Positions 10,210-53,508 of a DNA stretch of 57,402 nucleotides are shown one piece after another; the first letter of the stretch is position 1, and every line of letters starts with the position of its first letter. This stretch comes from Actinotalea alkalitolerans (GTDB lineage: Bacteria > Actinomycetota > Actinomycetes > Actinomycetales > Cellulomonadaceae). The notes under the pieces are model-generated. The model ran no database searches. It was not told where the DNA came from and worked only from the letters and a program-made list of their open reading frames with translations. A program made the translations under genes and the position numbers. The stretch is taken from assembly GCF_023369855.1 (NCBI RefSeq), contig NZ_JAMBPP010000020.1:8069-65470 (forward strand), read 5' to 3'.

Positions 10210-10836
10210 ATGGATCTCGGCTACGCGCGGGTCTCGACCGCAAAGCAGGACCTCGACCGGCAGGTCGAGGCGCTCGTGGTCGCCGGCGTCGCACGAGACA
10301 AGATCTTCCTCGACAAAAAGTCCGGCGCGACCACTGACCGGCCCGGGCTCCGCGCGGCGCTCGAGTACGCCCGCGACGGCGACGTGATCGTGGTGCACAC
10401 CCTGGACCGGCTCGGCCGGACCGTGCGCGACACCCTCAACCTGATCCACGACCTCACCGACCGCGGCGTCGGGGTGCGCAACCTCGCCGACCCCATCAAG
10501 GTCGACTCGGCCAACCCGAGAGATCCGATGGGCCAGCTCGCCGTCGTCTTGCTCGCGCTCTTCGCGCAGATGGAGCGGACGTACACGGTCGAGCGCGCAG
10601 CCCACGCGCGCGCGGTTGCGACGGCCAAGGGCCGGCGAATCGGCCGACCGGTGGTGGTCGACGCGGACAAGATCGCCTACGCCGCCCACCTTCGCGAGAC
10701 GGGGCACTCGATCGCCGACATCGTCGCCAAGACCGGCATAGCCCGCACCAGCCTGTACCGCCACCTCCCGCCCCGGGCGGTAGAGCACCACACGGCCGCG
10801 CCGGGGACTGCGCGGGCCGCAGAGGAGCACACCTGA
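10210..10836 (+). CDS. Serine recombinase (resolvase/invertase family)
   Basis: This 208-aa enzyme resolves DNA cointegrates or inverts segments through a serine-linked intermediate. The N-terminus MDLGYARVSTAKQDLDRQ contains the nucleophile (ARVS, S at about 8), and VVHTLDRLGRTVRDTLNL is the conserved arginine-rich helix. A C-terminal HTH follows (SIADIVAKTGIARTSLYRH, about 168-187). The tail is alanine-rich. A longer upstream reading exists, but family alignment places the start at MDLGYARV. A resolvase is unexpected in an IS30-type element, which normally moves through circles. Confidence 0.9.
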   Translation: MDLGYARVSTAKQDLDRQVEALVVAGVARDKIFLDKKSGATTDRPGLRAALEYARDGDVIVVHTLDRLGRTVRDTLNLIHDLTDRGVGVRNLADPIKVDSANPRDPMGQLAVVLLALFAQMERTYTVERAAHARAVATAKGRRIGRPVVVDADKIAYAAHLRETGHSIADIVAKTGIARTSLYRHLPPRAVEHHTAAPGTARAAEEHT

Positions 10837-10902
10837 CCGCCGTTCTCCCATGGCGAATAGGTGCCGGTCGGCTCGCTACGTTTTCTGCGCCCGCCGCCCG
10901 CC

Positions 10903-11085
10903 TCAGTGCCTCGAGCGGCCGGCGAACCGGCTCGCGAGTGAGCGGCGTGCGGCCCAGAGTGCGCAGCCGGCGCAGATGTACACCCCGGGCGTGCTGCCGA
11001 GCTCGACGGCGTGCGGCCGGACCCGTCCGCAGCAGCCGCACGTCTTGGTCGCGCTGGACGGAGGTCGGCTTGCCGTGGATGCCAT
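10903..11085 (-). CDS. Small ClpX-type zinc-finger protein
   Basis: This 60-aa protein contains CGCC, then GSTPGVYICAGCALW, i.e. a C-x2-C plus C-x2-C pattern. The spacing and the GVYIC core resemble the N-terminal C4 zinc finger of ClpX. The rest of ClpX is absent. It lies 46 bases after merA on the same strand and may be co-transcribed. It might bind metal or act as an adaptor; the function is unknown. The ribosome site is weak. Confidence 0.5.
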   Translation of the reverse strand: MASTASRPPSSATKTCGCCGRVRPHAVELGSTPGVYICAGCALWAARRSLASRFAGRSRH

Positions 11086-11131
11086 GGCCCAGGGTGGCTC
11101 ATCGACACCGGCGGCGTCGATGGTGGGCGGG

Positions 11132-12523
11132 TCAGGCGCAGCAGGATGTCGGCATCTCGTTGCGGAACAGGCCGGCCGCGATGCGCAGGCTCTCCGCCAT
11201 CGTCAGGTAGGGCGCCCAGGTGTCGGCGACGTCGTCGACGGTCATGCCTGCCCGGATGGCGTAGGTGGCGGCGAGCATGATCTCTCCCGCGCCGCCGGCC
11301 AGGGCGTGCGCACCCAGGACCCGACCCGTGGTGGCGTCGGCGACCACCTTGACCACCCCACGGGTGTCGCGGTTGACCAGGGCACGCGGGACGTCGGACA
11401 GGTCCAGCACCCGGCACGCGCAGGTGTAGCCCTGCCCGAGCGCTTCCTGTTCGCTCATCCCTGCCGAGGCCAGCTGAGGGCTGGTGAAAACCACGGCGGG
11501 CAGGCCGGTGTAGTCGACCTGCGCGTCGGGCGCGCCTGCGGTCCGGGCCAGCGCGTTGCGCGCGGCGACCCGGCCGGTTGCGGCGGCGACGTAGACGTAC
11601 TGCGGGGCCCCTGACACGTCACCTGCGGCGTAGACGCGGTGGTTGGTCGTGCGCTGGAACGCATCGGTGCGGATGAAGCCTCGCTCGTCGAGGTCGATGC
11701 CCGCGGCTGCGAGCCCCAGTCCGTCGGTCCTGGCCGACCGACCCACGGCGATCAGCAGCCGCGCGCCGCGGGCCACCGCACCTGAAGCCGTCCGCACCAC
11801 GACCTGGCCCCCTTCCGCCGCGACGGAGACGGCGTGCTCTTCGATCACGTCGATGCCGTCCTCGGAGAACACCCGGCGCAGTCCCTCGGCCAGCTCAGGC
11901 TCGGCGTGGGGTGCCACGCGCCCGACCAGGGAGACCTTGGCCCCGAGGTGGGCGAAGAGCTGCGCTTGCTCGAGGCCGACGTAGCCACCGCCGATCACTA
12001 CGATCGACTCGGGCACCTCGTCGAGCTCCATGGCTGTCGTCGACGTCAACCAGTCCACCGAATCCAGACCCGGCAGTGCCGGTACCACCGGTTCGGAGCC
12101 GGTCGCCACGACGTACGCCCGGGCGCGCAGGGCCTGCCCGTCGACGGCGAGCGTGTCCCGGTCGAGGAAGCTCCCCTGCCCCGAGATCACCTCGAACCCG
12201 TAGGCCGTGGCCACGGCGGCGTACTTCGCCCCTCTGAGCCGTTCGATCAGCTCGTCCTTCTGGCGCACCAACGCGCCCAGGTCCACCGTGCCGGCCGAGG
12301 TAGGTGCTCCGTCGAACGGGTTGTTCAGCGCACCGTGTCGGGTGCCGGCCGCGGCGAGGAGCGTCTTGGACGGGACGCAGCCGATGTTCACGCACGTCCC
12401 ACCCAGAACGCCCCGCTCGATCAGGACGACACTGCGCCCCGCCTGCCTCGCGGTGATGGCTGCGGCCATCGCCGCGCCCCCCGAGCCGACCACGGCCAGG
12501 TCCACGTCAGAGTCGTCATTCAT
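11132..12523 (-). CDS. merA: Mercury(II) reductase
   Basis: This 463-aa flavoenzyme reduces Hg(II) to volatile Hg(0) with NADPH. The FAD site is VVGSGGAAMAAA (about 12-23), the redox cysteines are C44 and C49 in GTCVNIGCVPSK, the NADPH site is VVIGGGYVGLEQ, and the second FAD motif is VYAAGDVSG. The C-terminal cysteine pair TSCCA (461-462), which loads Hg into the active site, is intact. There is no N-terminal HMA domain, as in many actinobacterial MerA proteins. The start at 12523 has a GAGGAGAGGG ribosome site. Divergent from merR. Confidence 0.95.
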   Translation of the reverse strand: MNDDSDVDLAVVGSGGAAMAAAITARQAGRSVVLIERGVLGGTCVNIGCVPSKTLLAAAGTRHGALNNPFDGAPTSAGTVDLGALVRQKDELIERLRGAKYAAVATAYGFEVISGQGSFLDRDTLAVDGQALRARAYVVATGSEPVVPALPGLDSVDWLTSTTAMELDEVPESIVVIGGGYVGLEQAQLFAHLGAKVSLVGRVAPHAEPELAEGLRRVFSEDGIDVIEEHAVSVAAEGGQVVVRTASGAVARGARLLIAVGRSARTDGLGLAAAGIDLDERGFIRTDAFQRTTNHRVYAAGDVSGAPQYVYVAAATGRVAARNALARTAGAPDAQVDYTGLPAVVFTSPQLASAGMSEQEALGQGYTCACRVLDLSDVPRALVNRDTRGVVKVVADATTGRVLGAHALAGGAGEIMLAATYAIRAGMTVDDVADTWAPYLTMAESLRIAAGLFRNEMPTSCCA

Positions 12524-16543: not shown

Positions 16544-18019
16544 GTGACCAACACGAGCAGCGACGCACTCGAGACGCTGGCCCCCTTGGCCCAGGCGCTG
16601 GCCGAGCCGACCCGACGGCGGGTACTCGCTGTCCTGGCCCGCGACGGCCACGCCTACCCCGGTGAGCTGGCCGTCGAGCTGGGCCTGGCGCCCACCGCGC
16701 TGTCGCACCACCTCACCTGGCTGCGCCGCGCCGGCCTCACCGTAGCCGTCCTAGAAGGACGACGCCGTCGACATCTCCTCAGCTCCGACGATCTGCAGGC
16801 GATGCTCCGCGAGCTGAGCCCGGCGGCGACCGGCGGCGGATCAGAGACCCGGTACGCGCCATCACGGATCCCCAGCTCCCACCCCCATCACCAACCGCGA
16901 GACCTCACCGCGCAGCAGCGGGAGGCGTTCCGCCGCACCGCGACGCTGTCACGGCTGGCGAAAACCGCGGCGCTGGCCGGCGAGGGCCCCGAGCCGATCC
17001 ACGACGTCAACGTGCCCAAGCTCTCCGCGCACGACCTCATGCCTGAACGATCCCCCAACGGCCTGCGCGCACTCTCGTTGTTCTCGGGAGGTGGCGGGCT
17101 GGACCTCGGGTTCGCCCGGGCAGGCATGGCCCACGTCGCCTCCTTCGAGCTGATGCAGGACGCCGCCAACACCCTGCAGAAGGCGCACCCGGACTGGCAG
17201 GTCTTCGGCGGCCCCGAGGGTGACGTCGGACGGGTCAATTGGAAGGCCTGGCGCGACCAGGTCGAGGTCCTCCACGGTGGGCCCCCGTGCCAGCCGTTCT
17301 CGGTCGCGGGCAGACAGCGCGGCCAGCTAGACCCCCGGGACGGATGGCCGGCCTACGTACGCGCCGTGCGGGCCGTGCGGCCGCTCGCATTCGTGGCCGA
17401 GAACGTCCCCGCCCTGGCGTCGAAGAAGTTCGCCGACTACGTCGAGCAGACGATCACGGGGCCGCTGGGGCGCGACTACACCATCGTCCGACTGCTGCTG
17501 CGAGCCGAAGAGTTCGGCGTTCCGCAAACCCGCCGCCGGGTGGTGTGGGTGGGCTTCCGCCGGCGCCGCGACGCCGCGCGGTACGAGCCGCCCGCCCCGA
17601 CCCATGCCTGGGTCCCGGACGGTGAGCCGCCGGTCGGCCTGCCTCGCACGCTCGGCGTCCGCGAAGCGCTGGGACTACCGGACATCGGCTTTGACGCCCT
17701 GTCCCCGACGATCCGCAGCACCCTGACCGGACCCCGCCACACGACCTCGATCCTCAACAGCACGGCAGCCCAGCGGGTCTTCGCCCAGCTTCAGATCTGG
17801 CCAAACGGGGTTGCACCCACCCGGGAGCGCGCCCGTGCATTCGTGGCCGCCAACGGCCACTTTCGGCTCTCCGTGCCGGATGTCGCGCTTCTGCAGGGGT
17901 TCCCGGACGACTGGCCGTTCCAAGGAGCCACCTATATGCAGCTTGGACAGATCGGGAACGCCGTACCCCCGCCGATGGCCTACGCCGTCGCGTCTTCGGT
18001 CGCCGCCGCCTTGGCCTGA
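16544..18019 (+). CDS. C5-cytosine DNA methyltransferase fused to an ArsR-type HTH
   Basis: This 491-aa protein joins two parts. Residues about 1-95 are an ArsR-like winged helix (LAEPTRRRVLAVLARDG, ALSHHLTWLRRAGL). Residues about 170-491 are a Dcm-type enzyme: motif I SLFSGGGGLDLGF, motif IV GGPPCQPFS with the catalytic Cys near 249, ENVPAL, QTRRRVVWVGF, and motif X GNAVPPPMA. It methylates cytosine at C5 in an unknown target and would protect against the nuclease encoded opposite. The fused HTH suggests it also represses its own promoter, as HTH-bearing methyltransferases like M.SsoII do, though with a different HTH type. Confidence 0.9.
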   Translation: MTNTSSDALETLAPLAQALAEPTRRRVLAVLARDGHAYPGELAVELGLAPTALSHHLTWLRRAGLTVAVLEGRRRRHLLSSDDLQAMLRELSPAATGGGSETRYAPSRIPSSHPHHQPRDLTAQQREAFRRTATLSRLAKTAALAGEGPEPIHDVNVPKLSAHDLMPERSPNGLRALSLFSGGGGLDLGFARAGMAHVASFELMQDAANTLQKAHPDWQVFGGPEGDVGRVNWKAWRDQVEVLHGGPPCQPFSVAGRQRGQLDPRDGWPAYVRAVRAVRPLAFVAENVPALASKKFADYVEQTITGPLGRDYTIVRLLLRAEEFGVPQTRRRVVWVGFRRRRDAARYEPPAPTHAWVPDGEPPVGLPRTLGVREALGLPDIGFDALSPTIRSTLTGPRHTTSILNSTAAQRVFAQLQIWPNGVAPTRERARAFVAANGHFRLSVPDVALLQGFPDDWPFQGATYMQLGQIGNAVPPPMAYAVASSVAAALA

Positions 18020-22224: not shown

Positions 22225-23685
22225 TCACTCCCCGTTGTCGTAGCCCTTGGCGGCGTCCTGGTCGTCGTCGCCCTCGGCGTCGCTCGGGTAGGTCGGGGCG
22301 GCGGTCGCCAGGGCCTCGACCTCGGACAGGGCGTAGCCCCATCCGGCCAGGGCGGTGAAGTAGGCGCGGTCCTGCTCGCTGACGTTGCGCCAGGTGTGGG
22401 TGCCGGTGCCGTCCTCGATCGCTGCGAGCACCAGCACCAGGGCGATGTGCTGGGCGCGGGCCGGGGTCGCGGTCGCGACCAGGTCCGCCAGCGGGTCCGG
22501 TGCGCCGTAGCCGACGTGCTCGGGCAGACCCAGCAGAGTCCGCGCGAGGCGGTGGCGGGTCTGCGTCGAGGCCTTGTCCAGCGCGTACGTCCCGGCGACC
22601 AGCCGACCGGCGAGGAACCCGGCCGCGTCCTTCGGGGCGGTCTTGCGGGCGGCGAAGCCAGCCAGCCACTCGCGGCGGACCGTCTCGGCGGACTTCCACG
22701 CCTTGTTGTTGGCGATGAGCGCGCGACGCTCGGCCTTCTGCTCCTCGCTCATCGGACCGGACTGCCGCTCGGTGCCGCCGGTGTAGGCGTACCGGTCGAC
22801 GTGACCGTTGCCCTTGGGGTCGGTGCACACGTGGATGGCCTGAACGCCCTTCCAGCCGTTGTCGATCCACGCTGCCCGGCCCGGGCACTCGGCGTGCGTC
22901 TCCGGGGTCAGCGGGGTGCGCTCGTCGCCGTCGAGCGTCGCCAGCTCCACCAGCCGCTTGATCGTCTTGTCGTCGTAGGCCGGGCGGTCGATCACCGGGG
23001 TCCCGGCCTCGGTCAGCGTCGCGGTCAGGTCCGCGACGGCCTGAGCCTCGTCGCGGTCGTCGCGCAGCCGCTGGGCGACGTGCGCGAACTGCTCCGGTTC
23101 GTCCACGGCGGCGACGGTCAGGGCCTTCACGGCCTCGGCGTTCCCGTCGAACTCCGCGACGACGGCGGCCTGGTCGAGGGTCAGGTCGTACTTCGCGGTG
23201 ACGGCGGCGGCGACCTCGGACCCTGCGACCGTCAGGGCGGTGGTGACCTGGTCCTTCTTGGTGTGGGTGCGCTTGGCGATCTGCGCCGCCGACAGGCCGA
23301 GCAGGGAGAGCTGCTGGAACGCGGCGACCCGGTCACGGTCGGCTAGGGCTGCGCGGTGGTCGTTCTCGGCCATCTGCTCGATGATCCGGCGGGCCTCGTC
23401 GGTGTCTCCGTCCACGACGTAGGCGGGGATCGCGGTCAGCCCGGCCTCGATGCTCGCGAGGGTGCGGCGCTGACCTGCCCGGACGTGCAGGGCGTCGGCG
23501 GTGCGCTGGACCAGGATCGGGGTCAGCACGCCGTGGGTCTTGATCGACCCGACGAACTCCGGCGTCAGGGCAGCGTCGGCGCGGACGTTGACCTCAAGGA
23601 CGAGGGTGCGGGGGTCGACCTGGACGATCTGCCCGGTCGTGGTGGTGGCCTCGGCGGCCGTGGTCTGGGACTCGGTGACGGTCAT
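22225..23685 (-). CDS. ParB/RepB/Spo0J-family protein
   Basis: This 486-aa protein has an N-terminal ParB domain: VDPRTLVLEVNVR, ILVQR and HVRAGQRRTLAS (about 23-78). A helix-turn-helix follows (LGLSAAQIAKRTHTKKDQV, about 129-147). The long C-terminal part (about 230-486) is not typical of partition ParB. It resembles accessory ParB-like proteins of actinobacterial plasmids. CTP binding and DNA sliding are known for the family, but the exact role here is unclear, since a second partition pair exists at 29497-30962. The ribosome site GGAGGG precedes the ATG. Confidence 0.8.
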   Translation of the reverse strand: MTVTESQTTAAEATTTTGQIVQVDPRTLVLEVNVRADAALTPEFVGSIKTHGVLTPILVQRTADALHVRAGQRRTLASIEAGLTAIPAYVVDGDTDEARRIIEQMAENDHRAALADRDRVAAFQQLSLLGLSAAQIAKRTHTKKDQVTTALTVAGSEVAAAVTAKYDLTLDQAAVVAEFDGNAEAVKALTVAAVDEPEQFAHVAQRLRDDRDEAQAVADLTATLTEAGTPVIDRPAYDDKTIKRLVELATLDGDERTPLTPETHAECPGRAAWIDNGWKGVQAIHVCTDPKGNGHVDRYAYTGGTERQSGPMSEEQKAERRALIANNKAWKSAETVRREWLAGFAARKTAPKDAAGFLAGRLVAGTYALDKASTQTRHRLARTLLGLPEHVGYGAPDPLADLVATATPARAQHIALVLVLAAIEDGTGTHTWRNVSEQDRAYFTALAGWGYALSEVEALATAAPTYPSDAEGDDDQDAAKGYDNGE

Positions 23686-23712
23686 GGTGAGCCGCCCTCC
23701 TGCCAGGAGCCT

Positions 23713-24115
23713 GGGTGGTCTGCTGGTGCCGACCGTTTTTCGCCCCCTCCTGGCGCCGTAATCACCGCCGGCATGAGCGGCCGGAACGACAACCCGTAGG
23801 GCAGCGCCGGGCACGAGTTCGTCCGGGCTCAGCGACGTAGGAGCGCAGGCCGGGCTCGTGCCCGGAGGCTGGCGGCGCAGCCGCTTGCGTGCAGGTCGCG
23901 CCGGCGATGATGTAGCGACAGGAGGGGAAGAAAGAAGACGTCTCTGCTGCCGGCGGCCGCGCAGCGGTCGACGACCGACAGCCGCCGGCGCAGCCGACGG
24001 CCTAGTCGTGAACCCCCTCCCCCACCGCCCCGGGCCAGCTGAGCAGCTAGGAGGCGGAGCCGAGTCGCTGCGATGGACGTCCAGGGCGGCAGCCGCGACG
24101 TCGCGTAGACGATCT
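23713..24115. repeat. Leader repeat, copy 2 (between ParB-like gene and 24127 gene)
   Basis: It is homologous to copy 3 across almost the whole intergenic stretch. The shared region runs from the TGCCGACCGTTTTTCGCC core at 23727 to an identical AGCAGCTAGGAGGCGGAGCC block and the palindrome GCGACGTCGC (24095-24104). It separates two divergent genes. On the minus strand, an ATG in the core opens a 30-codon frame whose TGA overlaps the parB-like ATG. That frame is not preserved in the other copies. Confidence 0.8.
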
Positions 24116-46559: not shown

Positions 46560-46920
46560 GGGTTATCGACGGAGGCAAGTGGTACGCCCGGCTCGACCGG
46601 AGAGCGGGCGAGACCGGCGGGCACCCAACGGCGTACTACAAGGTCATCGCTTGGGAGAGCACCGGGCGGAGGACGGCGAGCCGCTGCTGTTCGCCTGGCT
46701 CAACGGCGCACCCCCGGTACGGTCCGACCGGCTCGCCGACTACGGGCTGGTCACCCACTTTCGTGAACGGGTTCACCGAGGAGCTACCGTCAGGCGCCGC
46801 GACAGCCTCATGTGCATGACGCACCACTGTCGTCAAGGTGCTTTGCAAAGCTTGATAAACGACGCCGGAGCCCTTGAGGCCGGCCCGTGGCGAGGGCAGC
46901 ACTCCCGTGCGGCACGATGA
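46556..46920 (+). pseudogene. Frameshifted remnant at the end of the transfer operon
   Basis: A GTG at 46556 overlaps the previous stop and opens RVIDGGKWYARLDRRAGETG and HPTAYYKVIAWESTG. Coding character then moves to another frame: AEDGEPLLFAWLNGAPPVRS, then RLADYGLVTHFRERVHRG. One indel near 46665 would join them. The gene is probably broken, or a base was misread. The family is not recognised. The true end of the original gene is unclear. Confidence 0.45.
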
Positions 46921-46924
46921 GAGC
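46840..46924 (+). promoter_or_regulatory. Promoter region of the DUF1016 nuclease gene with palindrome
   Basis: GCTTTGCAAAGC (46840-46851) is a perfect 12-bp palindrome and could be an operator. CACGAT (46913-46918) lies six bases before the GTG at 46925 and would give a leaderless transcript. The segment is more AT-rich than its surroundings. Confidence 0.4.
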
Positions 46925-47965
46925 GTGTCTCGTGACCTGACTCTGCCGCCCGACTACGCCGATCTGCTCGCCGACCTCAAGGACCAGGTTCGTTCGGCCC
47001 AGCTCCGGGCTCACCGGGTCGTGAACACCGAGCTGCTCACGCTGTACTGGCGGATCGGTGAGTCGATCCGCAGCCGGCAGGAGGCCGCAGGGTGGGGCGC
47101 CAAGGTCATCGACCAGCTCTCGGCGGATCTGCGAGCGGAGTTCCCGGAGATGACCGGGTTGCGACGGACGAACGTCTACGCGATGCGCGCTTTCGCGACC
47201 GCATGGCCGGCCGAAGCGATCGTCCGACAGCCCATCGGACGATTGCCCTGGGGGCACGTCATCACGTTGCTCGAGAAGCTCGACGACCCACAGACCCGCG
47301 GCTGGTACGCCGAGCAGGCCGACACGCACGGCTGGTCCCGCAACGTGCTGCTCAACCAGATCATGTCCCGTGCGCACGAGCGGGTGGGTGCGGCCCCGTC
47401 CAACTTCGACCGGCACCTGGTGCCCGGGGACTCCGAGTTGGCTCAGCAGCTGGCCAAGGACCCCTACGTGTTCGACTTCCTCGGCCTGAGCAGGGGCATC
47501 GGCGAGCGGGACCTCGAGCAGGCACTCATGGACCGGATCGTCGAGACACTGCGTGAACTCGGGTCCGGGTTCGCCTTCGTCGGGCGGCAGGTGCACTTCG
47601 AGGTCAACGGGGACGACTTCTACATCGACCTGCTGTTCTTCCACGTCACCCAACTGCGCTACGTGGTCGTCGAGCTCAAGATCGGCAAGTTCAAGCCCGA
47701 CTACACCGGTCAGCTCGGGTTCTACATCAACCTGGTCGAGGACCGGCTGCGCCAGGCCCAGCACCAGCCGACGGTCGGCCTGCTCCTGTGCGCCGACCGC
47801 AACGAGAGCACCGTGCGGTACGCGCTCGGCGCCTCACAGGCGCCGATGGCAGTGGCGACCTACACCTACGACACCCTGCCCGCGGCTGAACGCGCTTCGC
47901 TGCCCTCCGACACCCAGGTGATCTCCGCGATCAGCACCTCCTGGTCGGTGACCACCGAGGACTGA
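46925..47965 (+). CDS. DUF1016 (YhcG) PDDEXK nuclease family protein
   Basis: This 346-aa protein has the N-terminal DUF1016 part (NTELLTLYWRIGESIRSRQ, GWGAKVIDQLSADL, GLRRTNVYAMRAF) and a C-terminal PDDEXK nuclease: GDDFYIDLLFFH, YVVVELKIGKFKPDYTGQL, QPTVGLLLC. The Asp and E-x-K residues are intact. YhcG proteins occur in defence islands and restriction loci, where they are thought to cut DNA. It stands alone between broken and defence-like genes. Confidence 0.9.
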   Translation: MSRDLTLPPDYADLLADLKDQVRSAQLRAHRVVNTELLTLYWRIGESIRSRQEAAGWGAKVIDQLSADLRAEFPEMTGLRRTNVYAMRAFATAWPAEAIVRQPIGRLPWGHVITLLEKLDDPQTRGWYAEQADTHGWSRNVLLNQIMSRAHERVGAAPSNFDRHLVPGDSELAQQLAKDPYVFDFLGLSRGIGERDLEQALMDRIVETLRELGSGFAFVGRQVHFEVNGDDFYIDLLFFHVTQLRYVVVELKIGKFKPDYTGQLGFYINLVEDRLRQAQHQPTVGLLLCADRNESTVRYALGASQAPMAVATYTYDTLPAAERASLPSDTQVISAISTSWSVTTED

Positions 47966-48266
47966 CGGCCGCCGCGCAACTCACGACGTAGCAGTAGGTG
48001 CGCGCCTCGTACGGCACCAAGGTTGCCCGAGTCCACTGTGCGGTGTCGTCCCCCGCCCGCACAACTTCCGGGCGTGAGCAGCGTGCCCGCCCCCGTGTGC
48101 AGCAGCCATCTCGGGCGTGATCCTTGAGACGACCGTTCCGAGACGGTGGCTTCAGGAGAACAACCGAGACTGTGCGGCCCGGGGAGTGCTCTCGGCCGCG
48201 TACCGCACGCTGACGACCGTTCCACACCAAGGGGACGAGACGGGCACGGTGGACGACGGGGGTGAG
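47966..48266. other. Intergenic stretch without a supported gene
   Basis: It lies between the DUF1016 and second AbiTii genes. I see no RNA gene, repeat or terminator-like hairpin. Its right end leads into the AbiTii promoter. Confidence 0.45.
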
Positions 48267-48272
48267 TAGCCT
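48267..48272 (+). promoter_or_regulatory. -10 element of the second AbiTii gene
   Basis: TAGCCT lies seven bases before the GTG at 48280, which would give a leaderless transcript. No clear -35 is seen. Confidence 0.35.
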
Positions 48273-48279
48273 CGTACTC

Positions 48280-49263
48280 GTGAACCGGCACGAGGAGGCC
48301 CTCGCCCACGCCGACGAGCTCCTGGCGGACATCGAGCTCTCACGCACCTCGACGGCGAAGCACGTGCTCAAGGCGATGCGAGTCGCCCGTCTCCTCAACG
48401 ATGCTGGCGCTCAGCGTTGGCTCGGGTACGAACTCGACGGCGTGCCGTCCGGGCCCGACGGGCAGGCGTGGATGACTACCACGAAGCGGTGGGCAGACAA
48501 GGACGCGGGCGAGGGCTATTGGGGTTCGTCGGCGTCCCTGGAAGCCGCCAGGGACAACGCCCGGTCGATCATCAAGGCTCACTCCGGCTCGGTAAGCCTG
48601 TCGGGCGACTACGTGACGATCGCGATGCGGGAGCGCTCGGGAACCATCGCACGCACGGCCTCAACAGCGAACGCGCTCGATCGCGTCCTGTCATCGGTCG
48701 AGTCGCATGTCTACCGCTTCGCGGCCGACGTGCATGCCGAGCTCACGTACTCGCAGGTGCAGGCGAACCTCTTCGAGGCTTCCCGGGAGGCGGTCGACGC
48801 GACGCTCGCCTCGATGGCGGGCGATGCGTTGAAGTCCATCGCGAGCATCTCGGAGCGACTGAACTCCGGTGACGAGTCGGCGGTGAGCCAGGCGATGACG
48901 ACGTGCCGACAACTGATCGACGCCGTGGCAGACCATGTGTTCCCGCCGGCCAAGGAGCCCTACAAGATCGGTGAGCAGGACCTGGACGTCACGGCAAACC
49001 GCGTCCTCAACCGGCTTCAGGCGCATCTGCACGAGAGTGGGGTGACGGGCGGACGCGCGACCAGGCTACGGAGGACGCTCGGTGATCTCTACGACCGGGT
49101 CTCCGCCAGCGTGCATCGTCCTGGAGGGGTAGATGTGCATGAAGCGCGGTACCTGTTTCTTGCCGTCTACACGGCGCTCGGTGAGGTCCTCACCTTGGGA
49201 CCCGACGATAGATCCAAGACGGAGAGCAGAGCTGGCGATGCGATCGCCTCCGACGACAGGTGA
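48280..49263 (+). CDS. AbiTii domain protein (second copy)
   Basis: This 327-aa protein has an AbiTii-type N-terminus (LADIELSRTSTAKHVLKAMR, ARLLNDAGAQRWLGYELDG, about 15-55). The C-terminus has a helical domain (RRTLGDLYDRVSASVHRPGG, then EARYLFLAVYTALGEVLTL) with an Arg-x4-His-like motif seen in HEPN folds. It differs from the AbiTii protein at 13109-14023 outside the first domain. Likely a phage-defence effector. The start at 48280 is chosen by promoter spacing; GTG 48262 is an alternative. Confidence 0.7.
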   Translation: MNRHEEALAHADELLADIELSRTSTAKHVLKAMRVARLLNDAGAQRWLGYELDGVPSGPDGQAWMTTTKRWADKDAGEGYWGSSASLEAARDNARSIIKAHSGSVSLSGDYVTIAMRERSGTIARTASTANALDRVLSSVESHVYRFAADVHAELTYSQVQANLFEASREAVDATLASMAGDALKSIASISERLNSGDESAVSQAMTTCRQLIDAVADHVFPPAKEPYKIGEQDLDVTANRVLNRLQAHLHESGVTGGRATRLRRTLGDLYDRVSASVHRPGGVDVHEARYLFLAVYTALGEVLTLGPDDRSKTESRAGDAIASDDR

Positions 49264-49584: not shown

Positions 49585-49698
49585 GATGACGACCATCGGG
49601 CTACACCGTGGCGAGAGCCGCGAACCCCAGGTTGCCCGGGCGCGCACCTCCCACGCCCCGCTCGCGTCCACGAGCCAGGTCTGCGGCACCCTGGCCGG

Positions 49699-49763
49699 CC
49701 CAATTGAGGGTCCCCACATTGGGCGGGATAATGCACGGAATCCCGTCTGATAGCCCGTAGGTT
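49699..49763 (+). promoter_or_regulatory. Promoter/operator of the SMC-recombinase operon
   Basis: CCCAAT (49699-49704) and ATTGGG (49718-49723) form an inverted pair, a possible operator. TAGGTT (49758-49763) lies six bases before the GTG at 49770, so the operon should be leaderless. The GTAGGTTGCTC block equals that before the ArsR-methyltransferase gene. Confidence 0.5.
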
Positions 49764-49769
49764 GCTCTT

Positions 49770-49937
49770 GTGAGCAACCTACTGCCGAACCTCGACGATC
49801 TCCTCGCAGAGCTGCCGGGATCAACACCGGCCGACCGGGACGCCCGTGCCCTGGCCCAGGCGGCCACCAGCGCCTCGACCGCCGCCGAGCTCGACCACGC
49901 GCTCACGTCTCTTGTGGCGGACTGGCGCACGTCGTGA
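49770..49937 (+). CDS. Small first gene of the SMC-recombinase operon
   Basis: This 55-residue protein starts VSNLLPNLDDLLAELPGSTP and ends TSLVADWRTS. It is acidic, helical and lacks membrane segments. The TGA overlaps the GTG of the ATPase gene (GTGA), and a leaderless promoter precedes it, which argues that it is real. Size and coupling suggest a partner of the ATPase, for instance an inhibitor or adaptor. No family is recognised. Confidence 0.6.
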   Translation: MSNLLPNLDDLLAELPGSTPADRDARALAQAATSASTAAELDHALTSLVADWRTS

Positions 49938-52459
49938 CCGGCCAGGGCGCGCGGCTGCTGTGGGTCGAGATCCGCGGCTTCCGTGCGTTCGGCACCGAGC
50001 CGCGCCGCCTCGAGCTCGACGCACCACTAATAGTGGTGCACGCCGGAAACAGCCAGGGCAAGACCAGCCTGGCCGAGGCGCTGGAGTTCCTGATCACCGG
50101 GCGCAGCAGCCGCCGCGACCTGCTCGGCGGCGCGAAAGCCGAGTACGACGACAGCCTGCGCAACGCTCACCTGCCCGACGGCGACCTCGACGTCTACATC
50201 GAGGCCGGAGTCGCGGCCCCGGGCGGCGTCGTGCACAAGGTCCGCCGCGAGCTCGTGCAGGACTTCGGGCACGGAACCGAGTGCGCCAGCCGACTGCTCA
50301 TCGACGGCCTCCCGGCCGAGGATCTAGCGCCCGTGGGGTTGCCGATGAGCGACCCACCCGTTCGCGCACCGGTGCTCCTCCAACACATCCTGCGCCATGT
50401 GCTGGCCACCGAACCCAAGCAGCGCGTCGGCTACTTCAAGGCCCTCCTGTCACTGACCGACCTTGACCTCCTCCGCGAGCGGGTCACCGCTGCCCGCACG
50501 ACACTGGAGCGCGAGGCCCCCGGAGCCACGCTCACCGAGGTGGCGACTCTGCTCCAGACCCCAGCCGCTCCCGCCGCGGACGCACTTCAGACCGTTGCCG
50601 ATTGCACTCCGGACGCTGAAGCGATCGCGGCGGCCGTCGACGTCGCCCTCCTCACGGCCGGCAGTGCCCTCCTCGGCACGCCCTCCGCGTCACGCCCCGA
50701 ACTTCAGACTGCGCTGGAGGCTGTGATTGCCGAGCAGAACGAGGAGACCTTCCCGCTACGGGCGTTCACCGCTGGCACGGTCGTCGACGCACCTTCCCCT
50801 CCCGACCTCCGCCCGTACGCCCACGTACTGGCCCAGGCCGACCGCGACGCGGCCCGCTTGGCACCCCTGCTCGCAGCTGCCCTGGCAGTCGAGGACCTCG
50901 CCAAGCTCGACCACCCGATGGACTGCCCCATCTGCGCAACTCCGGGGGCACTGACACCAGCCCGCATGGCGACCCTGCGCGACCAGCTGCGCCGCACCAC
51001 AGCGGTCGACACCGCGGCAATCGCCGCAGACGGTGTCGTCCAAAGGGCCCGCCAAGTCCTCGATCACCTGCTCTCGGCACTACCCGGGGCGGTCCCGCTG
51101 GCCGGGGCCTGGTCACCAGAGCAGCTCGCGACAGCCGCCGCGCAACTACGCCACCTCGGCGTCGACGACACGCTGGCGGAGCCCGCGCAAGCAACCGCTG
51201 CGAGCCTCGCCTCCGCCACCGGTGACGTCAGGACCGCCGCAAAGGCGGCTACCGAGATGCTCGATCACACCGCGCTGGACATCAAGACCCGGAACGACCC
51301 CTCGGGCGACCTCGCCGGAAGCTACACCGCGCTGACTGAAGCAGTGGAGGAGCTTCAGCGAGCCAGCCGCGATCACCACGAGACCCTGCAGACACTGCGT
51401 GCTGTTGTGGAACCGGCCGTCCGTCATCGCGCTGCCGGCAGCGGGCTCACTGAACTGCGCAACCTCGTCGCACACGTCGAGCAACTCGTCCACGACCTGG
51501 TAGCCGAAGCCGGACGGAAGCGGACCATCACCCGACTCAAGGCCGCCGAACAAGCACTGAGGAAGGGAGCCGGCCGCGTGCTCGACGCACGCTTCGAGCA
51601 GATGAGCAAGGCCATCGACGAGTGGTGGGCCACCATCCGACCGGAAGAACTCGTTGGCTTCGGCGGAGTCAGACGCCGCGCAGGGGGTTCGCGCTTCGTC
51701 AACCTCGACGCCACGCTACGCAGCGCCCCCACTGAGAAAGTTGTCGTCCGGGACGCCCTGGGGATCTTCAGTGATTCCCAGCTCAACGCGCTCGGACTAG
51801 CCATCTTCCTCGCCCGCGCCGAACTGCTGGGCTCTTCCGTGATCGTGCTCGACGACCCCATCCCAGGTAGCGACGCCGACCACCGGCTCTCCTTCGTCCA
51901 GAACACGCTTGACAGGCTGCTGGACGCTGGAGCACAGGTGGTGCTCACCACGTTCGATACCAGGCTGGCCGAGCTCGCCCAGAGCAACCACAACTACCGC
52001 GACATGCTCGTGTTCGAGCTCAGCCTCGCCGATCCGCTCGCCGGCACTGAGGCCGTTCAGACCTCCGACACCTTCAGCCGACTGATGCAGGACGCCGGGG
52101 TGCACCTCAAGGCAGGCACGATGCGCGGCCGGAAGGACGCATGCAACAGCTACCGGTCGGCTGCGGAACGCCTTGCGAAGCAGATCATCGCCACCGGTCG
52201 CACCTGTGAGGGAAGGCCCTCCACCGTCGCCGAGGTCGACGCTGAAGCTCCACTTCTTGGCGATCTCGTCCCCCTCGTCTGCCACTACGCGGCAGATGAG
52301 GCCGAGAAGGGTCGGTGGCGCAGCTTCGGCCAAGTACTCAACCCAGGCAGCCACGACGACGGGACTCCGTCGAACGGCGACCTTGCCCAGATCAAGGGCA
52401 ACCTCAGCCGCATCGCGAAGAACCACGCCAAGCACTGGCCGGGTGGGCTGCTGTTGTGA
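49934..52459 (+). CDS. SMC/Rad50-like ATPase with single-CxxC hook
   Basis: This 841-aa protein has an ABC-type ATPase head split by a coiled coil. The N-terminus has VEIRGFRAFGTEP and Walker A HAGNSQGKTSLAEAL (K43). A CPIC motif (C331, C334) at mid-coil can form a Rad50-like zinc hook in a dimer. The second head half has SDSQLNALGLAIFLARAEL (signature, near 615), VIVLDDPIPGSD (Walker B, near 638) and LTTFDTR. An extra C-terminal domain of about 150 residues follows, with WRSFGQVLNPGSHDDG. It likely handles DNA ends or structures. It is coupled to the genes on both sides. Confidence 0.8.
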   Translation: MTGQGARLLWVEIRGFRAFGTEPRRLELDAPLIVVHAGNSQGKTSLAEALEFLITGRSSRRDLLGGAKAEYDDSLRNAHLPDGDLDVYIEAGVAAPGGVVHKVRRELVQDFGHGTECASRLLIDGLPAEDLAPVGLPMSDPPVRAPVLLQHILRHVLATEPKQRVGYFKALLSLTDLDLLRERVTAARTTLEREAPGATLTEVATLLQTPAAPAADALQTVADCTPDAEAIAAAVDVALLTAGSALLGTPSASRPELQTALEAVIAEQNEETFPLRAFTAGTVVDAPSPPDLRPYAHVLAQADRDAARLAPLLAAALAVEDLAKLDHPMDCPICATPGALTPARMATLRDQLRRTTAVDTAAIAADGVVQRARQVLDHLLSALPGAVPLAGAWSPEQLATAAAQLRHLGVDDTLAEPAQATAASLASATGDVRTAAKAATEMLDHTALDIKTRNDPSGDLAGSYTALTEAVEELQRASRDHHETLQTLRAVVEPAVRHRAAGSGLTELRNLVAHVEQLVHDLVAEAGRKRTITRLKAAEQALRKGAGRVLDARFEQMSKAIDEWWATIRPEELVGFGGVRRRAGGSRFVNLDATLRSAPTEKVVVRDALGIFSDSQLNALGLAIFLARAELLGSSVIVLDDPIPGSDADHRLSFVQNTLDRLLDAGAQVVLTTFDTRLAELAQSNHNYRDMLVFELSLADPLAGTEAVQTSDTFSRLMQDAGVHLKAGTMRGRKDACNSYRSAAERLAKQIIATGRTCEGRPSTVAEVDAEAPLLGDLVPLVCHYAADEAEKGRWRSFGQVLNPGSHDDGTPSNGDLAQIKGNLSRIAKNHAKHWPGGLLL

Positions 52460-53508
52460 CCGGCCCGACCGACTCCCACCACCCTGCCCGGTCTCATCGA
52501 GGGGGCGGAACCTCCAATCTCGATGCGGCCGCGCTGTTGGACGGCGTTCCGCTCACCTCCAGCGAGACCGAGTACGTCGAGGCTGCCCGGGCGGCCAACA
52601 CGATGCGGGGGTACCGCTCGGACTGGCGCGAGTTCACCACCTGGTGCACCGAGCACGACCTCGAGCCGATGCCAGCGGCGCCGGCCACGGTGACCGGGTA
52701 CCTATCCGATCTGGCCCGGGCCGGCGCGAAGGTCGGCACGATGAGCCGGCGGCTGTCGGCGATCAAGTTCGCCCACCAGCTCCGCAACCATCCCGACCCC
52801 ACCCGCAACGCCCGGGTGGTCGCGGTGTGGGAGGGGATCCGACGCACCCACGGCGCCCCACCGGACCAGGCGACCCCATTGATGCCTCCGGAGCTGTTCG
52901 ACGTCCTGGACGCATGCCCGGTCACCAAGGCCTGGCGCACACCGGGGCGCCAGGACGAGCCGGACCTGGCCGGTGCGCGGGACCGAGCGCTCATCCTGGT
53001 CGGGTTCGTCGCCGCGCTGCGGCGCAGCGAGCTCGCGGCCCTGACCCTCGACCAGGTCGCCGCCCACCCCAACGGCCTGGTCCTAACCCTCGCACGGTCC
53101 AAGACCAACCCCACCGGCGAGCACGTCGAACTGGTCGTGCTGCCCCGCGCGGCCAACCCCGCACGCTGCCCGGTGGTCGCGCTGAATCACTGGATCCAGC
53201 TCGCCGGGATCACCGACGGCCCAGTGTTCCGCGCCGTCGGCAAGAACAACCAGCCGGCCACCCGCGCCCTGCACCCGGAGTCGGTCAACACCCTGGTCCA
53301 GAAGGCCGTCGCCCGCGCCGGCATCGACCCCGGCCCCTACAGCGCGCACAGCCTGCGCGCGGGGTTCGTCACCTACGCCCACCTACGCGGGGCAAGCGAT
53401 CGGGCGATCGCCCACCAAACCCGCCACCGCTCCCTGGCCACCCTGGGAACCTACGTGCGGGTCCACCAGGCGTGGACCGACAACGCCGCCACCATCCTTG
53501 GTCTGTGA
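52456..53508 (+). CDS. Tyrosine recombinase (phage integrase family)
   Basis: This 350-aa recombinase has an N-terminal SAM-like core-binding domain (TMRGYRSDWREFTTWC, about 45-125) and a catalytic domain: Arg in ALRRSELAALT near 189, HSLRAGF near 298-301, HRSLATLGTYVR with the nucleophilic Tyr near 333. All catalytic residues are present. GTG start overlaps the ATPase stop (GTGA), so it is made with the ATPase. It may integrate the element or act with the ATPase on its own target. Confidence 0.9.
   Translation: MTGPTDSHHPARSHRGGGTSNLDAAALLDGVPLTSSETEYVEAARAANTMRGYRSDWREFTTWCTEHDLEPMPAAPATVTGYLSDLARAGAKVGTMSRRLSAIKFAHQLRNHPDPTRNARVVAVWEGIRRTHGAPPDQATPLMPPELFDVLDACPVTKAWRTPGRQDEPDLAGARDRALILVGFVAALRRSELAALTLDQVAAHPNGLVLTLARSKTNPTGEHVELVVLPRAANPARCPVVALNHWIQLAGITDGPVFRAVGKNNQPATRALHPESVNTLVQKAVARAGIDPGPYSAHSLRAGFVTYAHLRGASDRAIAHQTRHRSLATLGTYVRVHQAWTDNAATILGL

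Follow-up and report, generated by a model that had tools for sequence, protein, structure and literature searches.

A three-gene operon in Actinotalea alkalitolerans

We analysed a 57,402-nucleotide stretch of DNA (the window) from Actinotalea alkalitolerans (Cellulomonadaceae; NCBI RefSeq assembly GCF_023369855.1, contig NZ_JAMBPP010000020.1), whose genome of 4.37 Mb is assembled in 35 contigs. Three genes on the plus strand of the window encode, in this order, a small protein of 55 amino acids (aa) with a GTG start (49770..49937), an SMC/Rad50-like ABC ATPase of 841 aa with a zinc hook, likewise with a GTG start (49934..52459), and a tyrosine recombinase (52456..53508). Both gene junctions are 4-nt GTGA overlaps, as a preliminary description of this DNA had read them, and the three genes look like a single operon. 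The ATPase was assigned through Pfam AAA_23 and an alignment of 44 rows. The recombinase matches Pfam Phage_integrase and has a SAM-like N-terminal domain; the neighbours and sites of its relatives suggest an Xer-like enzyme of the plasmid-maintenance type. It keeps the catalytic residues R189, H298 and R301 (HxxR), H324 and Y333, of which the Arg, HxxR and Tyr residues had been recognized before. Counted from the overlapping GTG it is 350 aa long, a presumed start, as alignments with its relatives in other trios begin only at about residue 33.

The operon probably has a leaderless promoter, as had been proposed. A presumed −10 box, TAGGTT (49758..49763, plus strand), ends 6 nt before the GTG of the small gene, and TANNNT boxes, read by eye, stand 6–9 nt ahead of the start in several relatives. 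Over the presumed −35 region lies a 20-bp palindrome of the form GGGAT-N10-ATCCC (GGGATAATGCACGGAATCCC; 49725..49744), a candidate binding or crossover site of the recombinase. Beside it, the preliminary description had singled out a CCCAAT/ATTGGG inverted repeat (CCGGCCCAAT / ATTGGGCGGG; 49695..49727), with 10-bp arms at 49695–49704 and 49718–49727, one mismatch and a 13-nt loop. This repeat exists, but a scan of relatives did not place it among their best repeats; the palindrome they share is the one at 49725..49744, and the CCCAAT/ATTGGG pair is probably incidental.

The small protein and the ATPase form a conserved pair

The conserved unit is the pair of small protein and ATPase; the trio is not one conserved machine. 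A scan of genome contigs with a five-row alignment recovered 52 ATPase loci in Actinomycetota, Pseudomonadota, Nitrospirota, Bacteroidota, Bacillota, Myxococcota and other phyla, and a scan of genome contigs with the single protein recovered no relative. With the window and earlier loci added, and after removal of duplicates (L047 and L049, which repeat L032 and L008) and of one short fragment (L083), 55 loci were used. Forty-eight of them entered an ATPase tree, from which L006, L069, L072, L073, L074, L079 and L080 were left out for internal stops or for having fewer than 600 residues. The 44-row alignment is the tree set without L077, L088, L090 and L091 and includes some near-copies; a 37-row alignment (A4) further lacks the near-copies L044, L052 and L054 and the loci L007, L008, L032 and L033, which came from other tools.

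In 48 of the 53 loci that have at least 200 bp of upstream DNA, across several phyla, the gene immediately ahead of the ATPase gene is a homologue of the small gene, which bears out, for this gene, the adjacency that the preliminary description had proposed to check. The count is made up of 47 loci found with profiles built from four groups of small upstream proteins, 30 of the sequences counted having served as profile seeds, and of L055, where the overlap is larger. L055 aside, the profiles matched no other frame of 38–145 aa within 3 kb. Because of this constant position and the specificity of the profiles, we regard the tiny gene as a real and old partner of the ATPase. It was missed at L067, L072, L073, L081 and L088, in three of which the ATPase frame is incomplete. 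The protein has no match in Pfam, PADLOC or NCBIfam; judging by gene order and constancy, it is possibly an antitoxin or a regulator.

ATPase homologues are rare. They were found in 2 of 221 genomes of the same family (the source genome included), in 2 of 301 genomes of the family of genome G545 (one of them partial), and in 9 of 396 genomes in a survey of the phylum at E ≤ 1e-20, three of these matching most of the length. The ATPase has no match among phages and matches two plasmid records, and neither the ATPase alignment nor the recombinase has a match among viral contigs. A homologue on a Bradyrhizobium plasmid (L006, 8998–11429) is broken into two reading frames.

One clade of the ATPase tree is embedded in type I restriction operons. 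At L033 (genome G384) the order is hsdM, small gene, ATPase gene and hsdS, each overlapping the next; hsdM and hsdS also flank the pair at L059 (where hsdS is in two pieces), L063 and L064, and at L060 and L065 the flanks are the same with hsdM partial at the contig edge. These six loci group together with support of 100/99, and they come from several phyla. In the case of TgvAB, genes that sit inside type I restriction operons turned out to serve in defence (PMC11411939), and PrrC is linked to restriction as well (PMC2610378; PMC3710099). The small protein of L074, a locus outside the tree, best fits the profile of the restriction group; no hsd match was found on its 4.4-kb contig.

The ATPase and its C-terminal tail

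The Walker A, hook, signature and Walker B motifs reported in the preliminary description were all recovered in the 44-row alignment. Walker A reads N39-S-Q-G-K-T, and the zinc hook reads C331-P-I-C334, with CxxC in 44 of 44 rows. S613 and Q616 of the signature region and D640-D641-P642 of Walker B are equally invariant. A Nitrosospira homologue (P0005) scores 42.2 bits with Pfam AAA_13, above the cutoff of 36; this family is not listed for P0002 or P0009.

Residues 696–841 (52019..52456, plus strand) form a C-terminal stretch that we predict to be an RNase of the HEPN/anticodon-nuclease type. R741 and E745, spaced as R-x3-E, and H807 are found in all 44 rows, R733 in 39 and P804 in 40. PrrC and RloC have a catalytic pattern in which Arg-X3-Glu is joined by a remote His that often follows a Ser, and the RloC triad, Arg-X3-Glu-X36-52-His, has mutational proof (PMC2610378). 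Domains of the PrrC/RloC type are HEPN RNases fused to ABC ATPases and are often restriction-linked (PMC3710099). The resemblance of the tail to these domains is a shared pattern that may or may not reflect homology.

RloC is among the known systems closest to the pair. Both have a split ABC ATPase with a CXXC hook and a C-terminal R-x3-E...H (PMC2610378), and the 841 aa of the ATPase fall inside the 658–897 aa range of RloC. Walker B reads DDP here and in 4 of the 5 RloC-type proteins inspected, and both show an occasional linkage to type I restriction. The pair is set apart by the wider E-to-H spacing and the lack of a significant profile match of the tail, both given below, and by the constant small upstream gene, none being mentioned for RloC in the portions of PMC2610378 available to us. 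With PrrC/EcoprrI, an ABC-HEPN RNase in a type I restriction operon, the pair shares the triad pattern and, in one clade, the location inside hsd operons (PMC2610378; PMC3710099), but PrrC is only 341–416 aa long and lacks the hook insert, and no hsd genes lie beside the locus in the window.

Separate small genes follow weakly related SMC-like ATPases at L035 (7490–7915), L036 (5557–6213), L038 (6769–7110) and L039 (8222–8581). Their products, of 113–141 aa in three of the four, have R-x3-E and HH-type motifs and are perhaps a separately encoded RNase subunit. Homology of the tail to these R-x3-E/HHH proteins was not supported, the hhalign score being 12.5 against up to 14.1 for shuffled-column controls.

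The recombinase is an occasional neighbour of the pair

A recombinase of this kind follows the ATPase gene in only 6 of the 55 loci, and at the other 49 none was found adjoining (one of these, L077, ends at a contig edge). The preliminary description had named ATPase homologues that regularly occur without the recombinase as evidence against a joint machine, and this is the arrangement found. Recombinase homologues of about 71–73% identity overlap the 3′-end of the ATPase gene at L043, L044, L045 and L050. At L061 the copy lies 22 nt downstream of the ATPase gene, split in two and truncated where the contig stops, and at L046 a recombinase gene lies 2.3 kb upstream instead. As L044 and L045 do not differ and L043 matches them at 97%, the linkage represents about three lineages. 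All these loci fall within a 13-row actinobacterial ATPase clade, six other members of which lack the recombinase, the nearest kin of L061 among them. At L041 a 381-aa gene (10595–11740) that reads like a different tyrosine recombinase starts 56 nt past the ATPase gene; its region has a counterpart in L054 and L079.

Close relatives of the recombinase (E ≤ 1e-80) are absent from the 301 genomes of the family of G545, and in the class (296 genomes) they were found in the source genome and in one more, where the copy has stops. Plasmids carry relatives without the ATPase, which also speaks against tying the two proteins together; the nearest, at about 59% identity, are in Pseudonocardia, with the ATPase not nearby. 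We inspected 13 plasmid loci out of 25 listed from 2562 matching records. In four of the 13, the recombinase gene is preceded, on its own strand, by AbrB/MazE and VapC/PIN genes: they adjoin the recombinase gene at L110 and L111, are separated from it by one gene at L029, and by three genes, two of them transposase genes, at L030. In another three, on Acetobacteraceae plasmids of Gluconobacter and Roseomonas, the recombinase gene is followed by a hypothetical gene and then by ScpA (L114, 1329–4542; L115, 1331–4566; L117, 1929–4476), and in the two Gluconobacter cases (L114 and L115) ScpB lies upstream of a dif-like palindrome. The remaining six (L028, L031, L112, L113, L116 and L118) have neither AbrB-PIN nor ScpA.

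A palindrome in the promoter accompanies the recombinase

The palindrome at 49725..49744 occurs once in the window, where 0.01 copies would be expected by chance, and is single-copy in the genome at up to three mismatches. L043 has the exact sequence, and L044, L045 and L061 each depart from it at one position; at up to four mismatches the palindrome was found at the promoter position of no other pair locus. The GGGAT-N10-ATCCC core is present upstream in all five recombinase-linked loci that have upstream DNA, from three lineages, and also ahead of the solo recombinase of L028, and it stands 12–13 nt from the −10 box in each of these six promoters. The layout at L028 is that of the window (palindrome, 13 nt, TAGGCT, start), with the core set in 13-8-13 arms (one mismatch) at −52. 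The outer arms vary by lineage and are still largely complementary, over 12 bp in L043 and 14 bp in L061 with one mismatch each. A search of 1.17 Mb of loci for GGGAT-N10-ATCCC yielded 14 rows at 8 distinct places, namely the six promoter sites, one over the start codon at L008 and one in L064; shuffled half-sites gave a mean of 0.6 rows and a maximum of 2. L030 has a near-match 155 bp ahead of AbrB, with 3 mismatches to the positions that the sites share.

Dif-like palindromes that at most 3 of 200 shuffles equalled were found upstream in 10 of 16 recombinase operons (L043, L061, L029, L110, L111, L028, L112, L118, L114 and L115). L114 and L115 share the same palindromic repeat, and that of L118 is perfect (16-7-16). 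At L044 the general palindrome score chose another repeat although the site is present. XerS is a single-recombinase Xer system whose site lies beside its own gene and has an 11-bp centre (PMC5357621). The arrangement seen here resembles XerS/difSL and XerH/difH in that a tyrosine recombinase goes with a palindromic site close to the gene or operon encoding it (as for XerS), and in a central region within the 6–11 bp reported (PMC5357621). A site of Xer type, with arms of about 11 bp and a centre of 6–11 bp, is clear in the ten operons, is reduced to its core in the window, and is weak or absent at L030, L113, L116 and L117. The candidate system differs from these Xer systems in being encoded on plasmids or a conjugative element and in that the recombinase gene would be co-transcribed with a toxin-like pair. 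No second copy of the site was found downstream of the recombinase gene, and on this ground we reject a mobile cassette between two copies of the site.

A possible abortive-infection pair in a proposed plasmid-maintenance cassette

We tentatively favour the view that an RloC-like abortive-infection or addiction pair was captured by an Xer-like maintenance cassette. The core would be a two-gene module with an action like that of RloC and PrrC, in which the zinc-hooked Rad50-like ATPase senses abnormal DNA, such as ends or damaged or replicating foreign DNA. An ATP-driven rearrangement would then release the C-terminal RNase, with R741, E745 and H807 as its predicted active site, and translation would stop. 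The 55-aa protein, made just before the ATPase, would silence it or couple it to a signal. The recombinase would be an Xer-like enzyme of plasmid maintenance, acting in multimer resolution with its core site in the promoter. The pair may have been captured between this site and the recombinase gene, filling the slot that AbrB-PIN holds in some related plasmids. The recombinase would thus be a regulator and resolvase and not the weapon of the pair. By binding the −35 palindrome it may repress the whole operon, in which case the pair would be released when recombinase and element are lost together, or else toxin dosage would become coupled to resolution. The RK2 par region is a plasmid maintenance cassette that unites toxin-antitoxin genes and a recombinase. 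It resembles the present locus in placing addiction and multimer resolution side by side, and differs in that the toxin slot here would be taken by a zinc-hooked ATPase whose tail is predicted to be an RNase.

We consider rather doubtful the more specific idea that the recombinase, bound at its dif-like site, represses a killing pair such that plasmid copy state or plasmid loss is read into abortive death, with AbrB-PIN, ScpA and the small protein–ATPase pair as exchangeable partners. If plasmid-type recombinases do head cassettes of exchangeable partners through a promoter site, replicon upkeep and population-level defence may be linked. The two-gene module itself, in which a tiny protein almost always accompanies a zinc-hook ATPase bearing a predicted RNase tail, extends across several phyla. 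A cognate silencing partner is listed as an open possibility for keeping RloC quiet (PMC2610378), and the pair would make this idea directly testable. Among the papers listed by full-text literature searches, whose coverage of subscription journals and bioRxiv is thin, none describes the pair with a recombinase.

Several observations weigh against the capture of an RloC-like pair. In the tail, the spacing from E to H is 56–62 over the 44 rows, outside the 36–52 of RloC (PMC2610378), and hhalign gave no significant match between the tail and those of five RloC-type proteins (probability 1.8%, E 0.028). Pfam has no family for the tail of the window's own ATPase. Over 37 members, Gon7 was matched most often (3 members, best E 0.0055); DUF4145, which we take to be a HEPN-like family, matched one member (E 0.0007). 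Ten tails scanned singly against Pfam gave no useful family, and the best match of the tail among solved structures was a ribosomal protein (E 0.04), with the HEPN enzyme Csm6 only at E 1.7. As for the cassette, the recombinase accompanies the pair only sporadically, which may reflect chance capture on several occasions, the copy at L061 is possibly broken, and toxin-antitoxin genes directly adjoin the recombinase gene in only 2 of the 13 plasmid loci. By the general score, 77 of 200 shuffles were as good as the palindrome of the window, which is degraded outside its core, and L030, L113, L116 and L117 did no better than shuffles. Half-sites lie over the start codon at L008, a locus without a recombinase. 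Of 14 actinobacterial pair loci with no such recombinase next to the pair, only L040 passed the palindrome score; this locus, which holds the nearest relative of the window's ATPase, has a perfect 9-7-9 palindrome at the corresponding promoter position (about 600–625, about −54 from the small gene), possibly a relic site.

Alternative explanations

That the recombinase is the integrase, or an integrase relic, of a conjugative element and shares a transcript with a cargo defence pair through a chance insertion, the palindrome being half of an att site, appears unlikely. The window does contain type IV secretion system genes (for an SCO6880-family protein and a TraG/VirD4-type protein), and the trio recombinase is the sole one of 12 Phage_integrase matches in the genome sited on contig C12. 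The preliminary description had itself raised the prospect of a mere integrase at an att site, and the evidence does not bear it out. The window has no tRNA gene, and the core is single-copy in the genome with none downstream of the recombinase gene, the ends of the element being unmapped. The mycobacterial trios retain the identical order and overlap, and several relatives of the recombinase adjoin plasmid-maintenance genes.

Quite unlikely, in our view, is a plasmid segregation module without a defence role, in which the SMC-like ATPase would condense or pair the replicon, the recombinase would resolve multimers and the small protein would be a kleisin- or KITE-like adaptor. The ScpA genes behind recombinase relatives on plasmids of Gluconobacter and Roseomonas, joined by an upstream ScpB in both Gluconobacter plasmids, are in keeping with such a role, as are ParA-like genes near the pair at L042 and L044 (read from translations) and a ParB-domain gene within the conjugative region of the window (22228..23814, minus strand), which hints at a plasmid or plasmid-like element. 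The ATPase, however, has a Rad50-type hook and the invariant R/E/H tail, and a segregation role leaves the clade embedded in type I restriction operons unexplained.

A pair of the Lamassu type, with the effector fused to LmuB and the small protein as a reduced LmuC, strikes us as improbable. Both systems combine an SMC/Rad50-like ATPase and a small protein in a context of phage or plasmid defence (PMC10586767), and LmuB is the PADLOC model that best fits the ATPase part (1.9e-10 for the protein in the window and 9.8e-26 for P0005). LmuB, however, is about 650 aa long and generally has a Glu-to-Gln change in Walker B (PMC10586767), whereas Walker B here is DDP in 44 of 44 rows, with Asp at 641 and no such change, and a C-terminal domain is fused to the ATPase. 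No conserved separate effector was seen among the first downstream genes, and the operon of the window has none, the region upstream beyond the small gene not having been systematically surveyed.

Least credible is one dedicated three-protein machine with a recombinase guided by a DNA-sensing ATPase, as the preliminary description had suggested: the operon-like layout, the small gene as conserved partner and the joining of the recombinase in more than one lineage stand, with gene overlaps in the window, L043, L044, L045 and L050, but direction of the recombinase by the ATPase is not supported, and the 49 loci without an adjoining recombinase, the tree and the recombinase relatives without the ATPase lead us to reject an obligate machine.

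Neighbouring genes

Upstream of the trio, and given here as context, lie a gene for a YhcG-type PDDEXK nuclease (46874..47965, plus strand), which is a PDC-S02 candidate defence gene, and an AbiTii-domain gene (48262..49263, plus strand). Conjugation genes lie farther upstream, and downstream of the trio is an IS21-like pair (read from translations). A YhcG-type gene also adjoins the recombinase gene upstream of the pair in Nakamurella (L046, 2887–5628). Elsewhere in the window (16544–18019), a C5 DNA methylase domain shares one frame with an ArsR-type helix-turn-helix.

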